Positions 21,431-24,712 of a stretch of DNA of 34,501 nucleotides are shown piece after piece. The stretch is from Acidobacteriota bacterium. Its GTDB lineage: Bacteria; Acidobacteriota; UBA6911. The stretch covers positions 1 through 34,501 of the forward strand of contig JAAYCX010000016.1 in the NCBI GenBank assembly GCA_012729555.1, given 5' to 3'. The position numbers and the translations under genes were made by a program. The number at the start of each line of letters is the position of its first letter. Position 1 is the first letter of the stretch. Below the pieces are notes generated by a model, which saw only the letters and a list, made by a program, of their open reading frames with translations, did not search any database and was not told the origin of the DNA.

Positions 21431-21464
21431 GCCGGGGGTGGACGCACTCCCCGCCCGATAGTCG

Positions 21465-21486
21465 CTTTATATAAAAAAGTACTTGA
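21465..21486 (+). promoter_or_regulatory. Regulated promoter A: TATATA -10 plus AAGTACTT palindrome
   Basis: CTTTATAT followed by AAAAAAGTACTTGA. The -10 hexamer TATATA (21468-21473) is followed 3 nt later by the perfect 8-bp palindrome AAGTACTT (21477-21484), which would cover the transcription start. It matches 19 of 22 positions of the element at 22543-22564, in the same orientation. It precedes the membrane protein and winged-helix regulator genes, so autoregulation is the simplest reading. An alternative reading uses TTGACG (21483-21488) as a -35. Confidence 0.6.
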
Positions 21487-21535
21487 CGCATGGGGAGCCT
21501 GGTGTCAGGATACGTGCGATCCGGGAGAACGCCCC

Positions 21536-22144
21536 ATGATGAAACAACCGCTCGACGCCGAGGCCGCCCACGAACAGCTTCTTTATATCCGTCGCACGCT
21601 CGATGCCGCGGGGCGGCTGTCGGCCGTGTCGGGCCGTTCCCTCGCGGCGGCCGGGGTCTTCGCCCTGGCGGGGGTCGCGGCCAACGCCTGGATCACGGGC
21701 GCTCCCTGGAACGCCGGGGGGCGCACGGGGACGGCCCTCGGCGTCTGGGGCGCGGTCCTCGTCCTGTCGGTGGGCGTGGTCCTGGTCGGGATGTACCGGA
21801 AGAGCCGCGAGATGCGCGAGCCGATCCATCCCCCGCTCCTGCGCCGGATCCTCTGGAGCGTCTGCCCGGCGATCTTCGTCGGCGCCCTGCTGACGGCCGT
21901 GGCGCTCGGCGCGCGCAGTCTCGAGTGGCTCCCCGTCATCTGGCTGGGGTGTTACGGGGCCGCCGTCACCAGCGGAGGACTGGTCTCGGTCCCCCCGATC
22001 CGGACCATGGGGGTCTGTTTCATGCTGGCCGCGGCGGGGGCGGCTTTTTCCCCTCCCGAAGCGCTGCTCGGATGGCTGGCCACCGGGTTCGGCTGGCTCC
22101 ACCTGGTTTTCGGCGTCCACATCGCCCGGAGGTACAATGGCTAG
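21536..22144 (+). CDS. Multi-spanning membrane protein co-operonic with a regulator
   Basis: A 202-residue protein with a short soluble N-terminus containing a helix (EQLLYIRRTLDAAGRL) and about six hydrophobic segments (for example SLAAAGVFALAGVAANAWI, AVLVLSVGVVLVGMY, VCFMLAAAGAAF). No family function recognised. Start ATG 21536 follows GGGAG by 8 nt; an in-frame ATG follows immediately at 21539. It overlaps the regulator gene by 8 nt. Membrane proteins of this kind paired with small winged-helix regulators may act as signal-sensing partners, which is inference from gene order. Confidence 0.75.
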   Translation: MMKQPLDAEAAHEQLLYIRRTLDAAGRLSAVSGRSLAAAGVFALAGVAANAWITGAPWNAGGRTGTALGVWGAVLVLSVGVVLVGMYRKSREMREPIHPPLLRRILWSVCPAIFVGALLTAVALGARSLEWLPVIWLGCYGAAVTSGGLVSVPPIRTMGVCFMLAAAGAAFSPPEALLGWLATGFGWLHLVFGVHIARRYNG

Positions 22145-22511
22145 GAAACGGTCGGACCGCCCGGTCCCCAACGAGCTCGACCCCCTCATCCACGAGCGCC
22201 TGCGGCTCGGCATCCTCTCCGCCCTGGCCGTCGAGGAATCGATCTCCTTCACCGGTTTGAGGGACCTGCTCGCGACAACCGACGGCAACCTGAGCGTCCA
22301 GGCGCGCCGGCTGGAGGAGGCGGGCTACGTTTCCTGTGAAAAGACGTTCGAAGGGCGGAAGCCGCGGAGCACCTACCGGCTCGCCCCGCGGGGGCGGAAG
22401 GCCCTGGAGGAGTACCTCGAGGTGCTGTCCGGCCTCCTCCCCGATATCTCGAGCGTGCGGCGCTCGCGGGCGCCGCGGCCCGGGACCGACCCGCTGCCGA
22501 CGCACGGCTGA
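22137..22511 (+). CDS. Winged-helix transcriptional regulator (HTH_34/MarR-like)
   Basis: A 124-residue DNA-binding protein. The winged helix covers about residues 15-100: LIHERLRLGILSALAVEE, then FTGLRDLLATTDGNLSVQAR (recognition helix region) and KTFEGRKPRSTYRLAPRGRK (wing). This fits the PF13601 type of one-domain regulators, which act as dimers. No ligand domain is present. ATG 22137 overlaps the membrane protein gene by 8 nt. Two near-identical palindromic elements, at its own promoter and at the uppS promoter, are the natural candidate targets. Confidence 0.85.
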   Translation: MARKRSDRPVPNELDPLIHERLRLGILSALAVEESISFTGLRDLLATTDGNLSVQARRLEEAGYVSCEKTFEGRKPRSTYRLAPRGRKALEEYLEVLSGLLPDISSVRRSRAPRPGTDPLPTHG

Positions 22512-22542
22512 CGGCGCGGCGGCGAATTTTTTTGGCTTATAA

Positions 22543-22564
22543 CTTTATATTACAAAGTACTTGA
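22543..22564 (+). promoter_or_regulatory. Regulated promoter B: TATATT -10 plus AAGTACTT palindrome
   Basis: CTTTATAT followed by TACAAAGTACTTGA. The -10 TATATT (22546-22551) is followed 3 nt later by AAGTACTT (22555-22562), the same layout as promoter A. The palindrome covers the predicted start near 22558 and ends just before GGAGG, which suits repression. It drives the isoprenyl transferase and radical SAM genes. Confidence 0.6.
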
Positions 22565-22574
22565 TGGAGGGCGT

Positions 22575-23291
22575 ATGAATACCCTGAATCATCTGGCGGT
22601 GATCATGGACGGCAACGGCCGCTGGGCCGAGCTGCGCGGGCTGCCGCGCTGGCGGGGGCACGAGCGGGGGCTGGGCGCGGTGCGGCGCCTGTGCGAGGCG
22701 GCCTGCCGGCTGGGCATCCCCTGCGTGAGCCTCTTCGCCTTTTCGAGCGAGAACTGGAAGCGGCCGGAGACCGAGGTCCGCTTCCTCTTCAGGCTCTTCC
22801 GGCGCTACCTCGGCGCCGAGCGGGAGTACCTCCGCTCGCGCGGCATCCGCGTCTCGGCCTTCGGCCGCCGCGACCGCCTCCCGCAGCCGGTGATCGAGGC
22901 GCTCGAGCGGACGGAGGCCGAAACCCGCGACTGCGGGCGGCTGCACCTGCGCATCGGGCTCGATTACGGGGCGCGCTGCGAGATCGCCTCCGCCGCGCGC
23001 GAACTCGCGCGCCTGGCGGCGCGGGGGGATCTGGACCCCGGGGAGATTACCGAGGAACGGGTATCCCGGGTGCTCGGGAGCGACGCGGCCCCCGATCCCG
23101 ACCTGGTCATCCGGACCGCCGGGGAGCGCCGGTTGTCGAATTTTCTCCTCTGGCAGGCGGCCTATTCCGAACTCTATTTCTCGCCGACCCTCTGGCCCGA
23201 TTTCGGCGACGCCGACCTCGGGGAGGCCCTGGCCGATTACGAACGCCGCACGCGCAGGTTCGGCGCGCTGCCGGCCGCGGAGGCCCGATGA
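22575..23291 (+). CDS. uppS: Isoprenyl transferase (undecaprenyl diphosphate synthase family)
   Basis: A 238-residue cis-prenyltransferase that extends farnesyl diphosphate with isopentenyl diphosphate, giving a polyprenyl carrier lipid. All signatures are visible: VIMDGNGRWA (9-18, with D12 binding Mg-diphosphate), FSSENWKRP (57-64 region) and DLVIRTAGERRLSNFLLWQ (about 177-195), then SELYF. ATG 22575 follows GGAGG by 4 nt. In most genomes uppS sits with cdsA/dxr; here it is instead under the AAGTACTT element and coupled by ATGA to a radical SAM gene. It may be a second, specialised copy; a search of the genome would tell. Confidence 0.93.
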   Translation: MNTLNHLAVIMDGNGRWAELRGLPRWRGHERGLGAVRRLCEAACRLGIPCVSLFAFSSENWKRPETEVRFLFRLFRRYLGAEREYLRSRGIRVSAFGRRDRLPQPVIEALERTEAETRDCGRLHLRIGLDYGARCEIASAARELARLAARGDLDPGEITEERVSRVLGSDAAPDPDLVIRTAGERRLSNFLLWQAAYSELYFSPTLWPDFGDADLGEALADYERRTRRFGALPAAEAR

Positions 23292-24712
23292 GGGTCAAAC
23301 TGGTCCTGCCCGCGCTCACCGAGGCCAGGAGCCCCTTCTGGCGCCCCATCAAGTACAGCCTCTTCCCCCCCCTGGGACTGGCCACCCTGGCGGGTTACCT
23401 CGATCCCGACGACGAGGCCTCGATCTGCGACGAGCACGTGGAGCCGCTCGACCTGGAGGACCGCCCTGACTTGGTCGCCATCGAGGTCTACATCACCTCC
23501 GCCCGCCGGTCCTACGGGATCGCGGACCATTACCGCGCCCGCGGGGTGCATGTCTGTCTCGGGGGGCTGCATGTCACCTCGCTCCCCGGCGAGGCTGCGG
23601 CGCACGCCGACACCCTCTTCCTGGGCCCCGGGGAGGACACTTGGCCGGAGTTCCTCCGGGACTTCCGGGCGGGCGTCCCCCGCAGCGTCTATCGTTCCAG
23701 CCGGCGAACCCTCGAGGAAGCGCCGGTGCCGCGGCGCGACCTCATCCGGCGCTCCCTCTACCTGGTTCCCAACTCGATCGTGGTCTCGCGCGGCTGCCCG
23801 AACCGGTGCGGGTTCTGCTACCAGACCTCCTTCTTCCGAGGCGGGGCGTCCTTCTATGCCCGGCCGGTCGACCGGGCGCTCGCGGAGATCGCCCTGCTGC
23901 CGGGACGGCACCTCTATTTTCTCGACGACAACCTCTTCGGCGATCCGGCCTACGCCGTCTCCCTCTTCGACGGGCTCGAGGGGATGGGCCGCCTGTGGCA
24001 GGCGGCGGGAACGGTCCGTTCGGTCCTCGAGCCCGGGCTGCTGCGGCGCGCCGCCAGGAGCGGGCTCCGCAGCCTCTTCGTCGGGTTCGAGAGCCTCAAC
24101 GAGCGCAACCTGAGGGCGCAGGGGAAAGGCCAGAAGCTCGGGGAGTACGCCGCCGCCGTCCGCCGATTGCACGAGCACGGGGTCATGGTCAACGCGAGCT
24201 TCGTCTTCGGGATGGACGAGGATGGCCCCGACGTCTTCGCGCGCACGGTGGACTGGGCCGTGGGGCAGGGGATCGAAACGGCCACCTTCCACGTCCTGAC
24301 CCCCTATCCCGACACCCCCCTCTTCCGGCGCATGGCGGCGGCGGGGCGGATCACCACCCGGGACTGGGACCTGTACGACACGCGCCACGCCGTGTTCACC
24401 CCGCGGCGGATGTCGGCGGCCCGGCTGGAGGCGGGGTACCGGCGCGCGTACCGGGAGTTCTATTCCTGGCCCAACATCGCGCGCTCCACCGCCCGGCAGG
24501 AAGGGACGCTCCGCGGGGCGCGCCATCTCGCCTACAAGGCCGCCTGGAAGAAATGCGAGCCGCTCTGGGACCTCGTGATCAGGCTCCGGCGCCTCTCCGC
24601 GTTCACCCCGGCCCTGGAGAAGGTCCTTTCCCCGGCCCGTCCGCCTACTTCAGGGTCCTCGAGGAGACGAACATCAGCAGACCGAAGATCTCCAGCCTTC
24701 CCAGCAGCATGA
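23288..24712 (+). CDS. B12-binding-domain-type radical SAM protein
   Basis: A 474-residue protein. Residues 1-150 resemble the cobalamin-binding-like Rossmann domain of class B radical SAM enzymes (SLFPPLGLATLAGYL, VCLGGLHVTSLPGEA, FLGPGEDTWPEFL), without the DxHxxG cobalt-ligand motif. The radical SAM barrel has the cluster motif C170, C174, C177 (SRGCPNRCGFCYQ), YFLDDNLFG, FVGFESLNERN and VNASFVFGMDED. The start overlaps the uppS stop (ATGA). Members include hopanoid, bacteriochlorophyll and lipid-modifying enzymes. With uppS as partner, an isoprenoid or lipid substrate is plausible but unproven. Its last 68 nt overlap the convergent trkH end, and the tail is low-complexity. Confidence 0.85.
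   Translation: MRVKLVLPALTEARSPFWRPIKYSLFPPLGLATLAGYLDPDDEASICDEHVEPLDLEDRPDLVAIEVYITSARRSYGIADHYRARGVHVCLGGLHVTSLPGEAAAHADTLFLGPGEDTWPEFLRDFRAGVPRSVYRSSRRTLEEAPVPRRDLIRRSLYLVPNSIVVSRGCPNRCGFCYQTSFFRGGASFYARPVDRALAEIALLPGRHLYFLDDNLFGDPAYAVSLFDGLEGMGRLWQAAGTVRSVLEPGLLRRAARSGLRSLFVGFESLNERNLRAQGKGQKLGEYAAAVRRLHEHGVMVNASFVFGMDEDGPDVFARTVDWAVGQGIETATFHVLTPYPDTPLFRRMAAAGRITTRDWDLYDTRHAVFTPRRMSAARLEAGYRRAYREFYSWPNIARSTARQEGTLRGARHLAYKAAWKKCEPLWDLVIRLRRLSAFTPALEKVLSPARPPTSGSSRRRTSADRRSPAFPAA

Follow-up and report, generated by a model that had tools for sequence, protein, structure and literature searches.

A shared operator probably ties an autoregulated HTH_34 repressor and its membrane partner to uppS2, a radical SAM gene and creD in Acidobacteriota

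The window analysed here is a stretch of 34,501 nucleotides from an Acidobacteriota bacterium (contig JAAYCX010000016.1), in which a membrane protein gene and a regulator gene are followed by a prenyl synthase gene and a radical SAM gene. The features concerned, with coordinates in the window, are:

21464..21486, + strand: operator 1, GCTTTATATAAAAAAGTACTTGA, with the dyad CTTT (21465-21468)-N7-AAAG (21476-21479)
21477-21484, + strand: third half-site of operator 1, AAGTACTT
21483..21511, + strand: likely promoter of the membrane protein-regulator operon, with a -35 box TTGACG (21483-21488) overlapping the operator and a weak -10 box CAGGAT (21506-21511)
21536..22144, + strand: six-TM membrane protein of 202 aa with an N-terminal helix, family unassigned, proposed sensor or partner
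22137..22511, + strand: winged-helix regulator of 124 aa, HTH_34 (PF13601) by profile match
22542..22564, + strand: operator 2, ACTTTATATTACAAAGTACTTGA, about 10 bp 5′ of the uppS2 start
22546-22551, + strand: possible uppS2 -10 box TATATT, inside operator 2
22575..23291, + strand: uppS2, a second cis-prenyl (undecaprenyl diphosphate) synthase
23288..24712, + strand: radical SAM protein with a B12-binding domain, CxxxCxxC present

The regulator was assigned to HTH_34 with 89.6 bits against a curated cut-off of 27 (residues 22-100, E 1.5e-25), whereas its scores against PadR (23.5 bits, cut-off 27) and the NCBIfam model padR_acidobact (22.6 against 101.8) place it in neither family. Its ATG overlaps the stop codon of the membrane protein gene by 8 bp, an arrangement that indicates translational coupling of the two. 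The membrane protein was modelled as an N-terminal helix followed by six long helices (pLDDT 84). Profile searches gave it no family match, the SdpI family (PF13630) included, and a fold search with the model returned no match, the rows being generic helical bundles and 7-TM rhodopsin-like proteins with Z below 8 except for a designed barrel; one row named 'CreD' (5xny) we take to be an unrelated enzyme sharing that name.

UppS2 covered the whole PF01255 profile with 250.6 bits and carries the MDGNGRWA and RLSNFLLWQ motifs, and it is thus a full-length member of the UppS family, from which it differs in being a second, regulated paralogue. The housekeeping uppS of the same genome (G000:C81) has cdsA-like and dxr-like neighbours, which were recognised by eye in translation, and the two synthases are 48% identical and fall in separate clades (support 100/100). 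A 4-bp overlap joins the uppS2 stop to the start of the radical SAM gene. Its translation contains CPNRCGFC and matched PF04055 with 48 bits and the B12-binding domain PF02310 with 33.2 bits, just above the cut-off of 32.1, and it was accordingly classed as a B12-dependent radical SAM protein; scores of 70.2 against 577.6 and 58.3 against 650 exclude it from the NCBIfam equivalogs of hopanoid HpnJ and HpnR. At G017:C187 (L167), several radical SAM genes akin to this one stand in tandem, without this regulator.

Matching elements in the same orientation had originally been predicted at 21465-21486 and 22543-22564, one 5′ of the membrane protein and regulator and the other 5′ of uppS and the radical SAM gene. 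The sites, their orientation and both placements were confirmed, although the two are identical at 20 of 22 positions and not at 19. With up to two mismatches, TATATNNNNAAGTACTT was found at these two places only within the window, while 0.01 occurrences were expected from shuffles. Over the whole 3.83-Mb genome there are three exact copies of CTTTANNNNNNAAAGTACTT, every one 5′ of a gene, compared to about 0.0007 expected from base composition; AAAGTACTTG also occurs three times, and the 23-mer with up to three mismatches was found three times and its reversed control not once. These three operators stand before the membrane protein-HTH_34 operon and before uppS2 and the radical SAM gene, both in the window, and before creD on another contig. 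The third site (G000:C59:94751) lies 68 bp 5′ of its gene, the product of which belongs to the CreD family (PF06123; 489.7 bits, cut-off 23, E 1e-146).

Alignment of 21 family sites, a set biased towards the pattern because part of it was picked by pattern, gave near-invariant CTTTA, AAAG and TACTT in this order, around an A/T-rich middle of lower conservation. The palindrome AAGTACTT, which had been taken for the whole element, was rejected as the operator on its own, because the CTTT half-site 5′ of it, at a fixed 7-bp spacing, is equally conserved and because an 8-bp palindrome is too short for two winged-helix recognition helices. From conservation, the predicted operator is CTTTA-N6-AAAGTACTT, consisting of the dyad CTTT-N7-AAAG and a third half-site. 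The full form, with four half-sites, is seen at one acidobacterial locus, L044 (AAAGTACTTTATAAAATAAAGTACTTT); the window sites keep three of the four.

The operator was then followed through 60 related acidobacterial genomes, including those of the window's own family, f1. All 16 exact operators were found in f1, and the other 45 genomes had none. Each of the 16 is located just 5′ of the membrane protein-HTH_34 operon, uppS2, the radical SAM gene or a CreD-family gene, and the CreD-family targets include divergent CreD genes in G010 (exact operator) and G013 (one mismatch). Wherever the regulator is present in the family, in 11 of 11 genomes, the element precedes the membrane protein-regulator operon and uppS2 follows the regulator, either in the same operon or with its own operator (G000, G003 and G008). 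The radical SAM gene lies behind uppS2 in G000, G003 and G007, and it stands apart with its own operator in G008, in G012 (a relative at 42% identity) and in G001 (two mismatches). Copies that stand apart mostly have an operator of their own, and this swapping of uppS2 and the radical SAM gene between the operon and a site of their own is the usual mark of true co-regulation. creD was absent from the regulator-bearing genomes G001, G003, G007, G009, G011, G012 and G014, and is thus not an obligatory target. Outside f1, the one-mismatch matches that were inspected were mostly intragenic and were treated as chance, with exceptions at a regulator in G047, a regulator relative in G059, and G028:C693. 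In G003, the radical SAM gene (L104:3948-4589, G003:C34) matches residues 1-214 only and looks truncated or broken by the assembly.

One could in principle explain two near-identical copies 1.1 kb apart by a promoter that was duplicated recently, or by a mobile repeat, without any link to regulation, but this is scarcely credible, since the flanks of the two copies are unrelated, a third copy lies on another contig, the sites of relatives vary at non-contact positions and keep their half-sites, and placement exclusively 5′ of the same gene set leaves a phylogenetic footprint that contradicts it.

Loss of the regulator gives a complementary view of the site. G005 and G006 (99 and 97% complete) both lack the regulator and uppS2, and G005 also lacks any exact operator. 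In G006, the left flank of the window is followed by a 125-bp remnant of the regulator, while the membrane protein, uppS2 and this radical SAM gene are gone; creD is kept and its operator is broken, with the nearby promoter-leader still aligning by eye. The remnant itself (L163:5537-5661, G006:C74) corresponds to window positions 22265-22389, and a decayed operator-like sequence, AATGATAAAAGGTGCTTGATG, lies directly 5′ of it. G004 has the creD operator and no regulator match, but one of its contigs ends within the radical SAM tail in the same context, and its regulator locus therefore probably falls in an assembly gap. Across these genomes the motif co-occurs with the regulator at one to a few copies per genome, is missing or degraded in those near-complete relatives that lack the regulator, and does not occur at unrelated promoters.

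The same site was seen well beyond the Acidobacteriota. Thirty-two relatives of the regulator were collected by protein similarity only, without reference to the operator pattern; 25 of them have ACTTT-N7-AAAGT upstream with at most one mismatch, compared to 1.5 expected and 6 in downstream controls. A conserved dyad over the operon's own promoter, by which we recognise an autoregulating operon, is thus present in 11 of 11 family genomes and in 25 of 32 broader relatives. An exact dyad with a spacer of 7 bp is present in 19 of 28 relatives, with each other length represented by none or one, and the site was absent at the relatives L052 and L064-L066. Site-bearing pairs of membrane protein and HTH_34 genes come from Clostridia, Alphaproteobacteria (Asticcacaulis), Spirochaetes, Neomarinimicrobiota and others. 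The predicted recognition helix, TDGNLSV, is invariant among aligned regulator relatives, consistent with a site conserved across them. In most genomes of other phyla, the sole exact site is at the pair's own promoter; the autoregulated pair thus looks old, and the regulon of uppS2, the radical SAM gene and creD looks like something added to it locally. The HTH_34 relative in G047 (L227:3951) has the changed helix TDGNLAQ and a variant operator in which position 5 is G in place of A (ACTTTGCAATGCAAAGTACTT), and is followed by an ABC-transporter cluster; here operator and protein appear to covary. In Asticcacaulis G061 (L217:4266), an extra operator precedes a gene for a TonB-type outer membrane receptor (PF14905), and another extra operator, at L218:4575, precedes a gene for a small membrane protein that is DUF7010-like below the cut-off. 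The extra operators of Alphaproteobacteria possibly make up a different regulon.

Could the element belong to another global regulator, or be the promoter of an alternative sigma factor, with the HTH_34 gene merely one of its targets? The element does sit where promoters sit and contains TATAT, and binding by the HTH_34 protein is a prediction. We consider this very improbable, since each genome has one to three exact copies, which in regulator-bearing genomes always, or nearly so, include one at the HTH_34 operon, the element is absent from genomes without the regulator and decayed at creD after regulator loss, and a dyad with a fixed 7-bp spacer follows the regulator across phyla. Exclusive placement, co-inheritance, exchange between operon and own site, and decay after loss are all legible in the sequences, and they make a strong case that the site is linked to this regulator.

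The position of the operator within the promoters suggests how it may act. At the promoter of the regulator operon, the -35 box is TTGACA, or differs from it by one base, in all 11 family genomes; AA(G)(T/A)ACTT runs into TTGACA or its one-base variant, a weak -10 box follows 17-18 bp on, and the conserved feature is AAGTACTTGAC(A/G), in which the -35 box overlaps the element. In G000, G004 and G008, the creD promoters have TTGCAA-17-TAGCAT/TAGTAT/TATACT, with the -35 box within the operator. At uppS2, a TATATT/TATAAT-like box inside the dyad is the likely -10, probably also at the radical SAM gene, and no good -35 was seen at the uppS2 promoter. In Clostridia (L049, L055 and L062), a TTGACA-17-TATAAT-type pair likewise places the -10 inside the dyad. 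The original prediction of a TATAT -10 followed by a palindrome over the start at both promoters can thus hold for uppS2 at best, and not for the regulator promoter, where the site overlaps the TTGAC(A/G) -35. TATAT as the -10 of the regulator operon is not favoured, as relatives have TTGACA overlapping the 3′ half-site. The operator therefore appears to differ in placement, over the -35 at the regulator operon and creD and over the putative -10 at uppS2, and both positions would be compatible with steric repression.

From these positions alone we infer repression. An activating or dual role of the HTH_34 protein is the alternative, given that the operator at the regulator and creD promoters lies mostly 5′ of the -35, where activation is also compatible, and that the -10 boxes there are poor (CAGGAT, for example). 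However, the sites at uppS2, at the radical SAM gene and in the three Clostridia cover the likely -10, the regulator-operon site runs into TTGACA, and one type of site lying over core elements in both positions fits occlusion, which leaves activation rather improbable.

We thus regard it as quite probable that the HTH_34 protein is a repressor that regulates itself, has a membrane partner and controls an envelope or lipid-carrier regulon through the shared operator. The earlier proposal of an autoregulating system that also controls uppS and the radical SAM gene agrees with the way the element tracks the regulator, and it can be extended to creD and to a separate copy before the radical SAM gene when that gene lies apart. 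In the proposed mechanism, the protein encoded at 22137-22511 would bind CTTTA-N6-AAAGTACTT and repress its own operon, the adjoining uppS2-radical SAM genes and the distant creD, blocking RNA polymerase by covering the -35 (regulator operon and creD) or the -10 (uppS2). The six-TM protein, coupled to the regulator, would probably report the state of the membrane or envelope and so relieve repression, and relief would supply more polyprenyl-phosphate carrier through UppS2, a radical modification, and CreD. Direct binding and sensing, as well as a purpose in envelope protection or in a special polyprenyl carrier, are what we infer beyond the site itself.

Sensing is a guess, because the membrane protein has neither a family nor a fold match, and the idea comes by analogy with sdpRI. 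There, a toxin is detected by the membrane protein, which then captures the repressor SdpR; SdpR belongs to the ArsR family and not to HTH_34. As a two-gene autoregulated operon of a winged-helix repressor (SdpR) and a multi-pass membrane protein (SdpI), sdpRI resembles our pair. In Bacillus subtilis, this operon codes for an anti-toxin protein of the membrane and for the repressor of the operon itself (PMC6818787). The window's membrane protein differs in having no SdpI match (a distant homologue, L051, reaches E 0.018, below the cut-off), and the system differs in its further targets uppS2, the radical SAM gene and creD, controlled in trans. In E. coli and Stenotrophomonas, creD is likewise controlled, by CreBC, and has a role in envelope integrity, which is compromised by CreD loss in Stenotrophomonas (PMC4689548), whereas creD in the window's genome carries an HTH_34 operator on a contig apart from the regulator. 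The solved HTH_34 example, PH1061 (1ub9), a hypothetical protein, has the same domain as our regulator (E 0.0018). We know of no operator for the HTH_34 family. The literature search, which covered open-licence papers, gave none describing such a regulon or this operator, or treating HTH_34 (PF13601) under that name, in agreement with the original view that this is not a described system.

With two or three targets in each genome, the evidence for the purpose of the regulon is thin. It is a substantial possibility, though short of an even chance, that the regulon is real and serves not envelope stress but a modified polyprenyl carrier, made by UppS2 and the radical SAM enzyme for a glycan or secondary metabolite. 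UppS2 forms a distinct clade and is encoded beside a radical SAM protein of an uncharacterised B12-type subfamily, and in G028, of another acidobacterial family, a related site precedes a gene for a TMEM260-like O-mannosyltransferase, a kind commonly using polyprenyl-phosphate sugar. Co-control of CreD points instead to envelope integrity, and the two ideas are not exclusive. The G028 site (G028:C693, L225:4003-4036) is the variant operator ACTTTGCATTGCAAAGTACTT.

For the repressor with its membrane partner, these data provide a testable operator and a first regulon for a pairing of membrane protein and HTH_34 regulator that is met with in several phyla and whose function is undescribed. They connect a regulated second UppS and a radical SAM enzyme with the envelope protein CreD, of poorly understood role, and yield a direct prediction of one protein acting at three promoters. 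More tentatively, and less likely than not as a whole, the six-TM protein and HTH_34 repressor with their conserved three- or four-half-site operator may be an undescribed cross-phylum one-component module for sensing the state of the envelope or of the lipid carrier. In group-18-like Acidobacteriota, this module would command the dedicated UppS2 and the radical SAM enzyme, which would make a chemically modified polyprenyl carrier, and CreD as well. In Luteitalea sp., an operator-like dyad (L043:5026-5042) was also seen 3′ of the regulator, before genes for a serine beta-lactamase-fold protein (PF00144) and an ABC ATPase.
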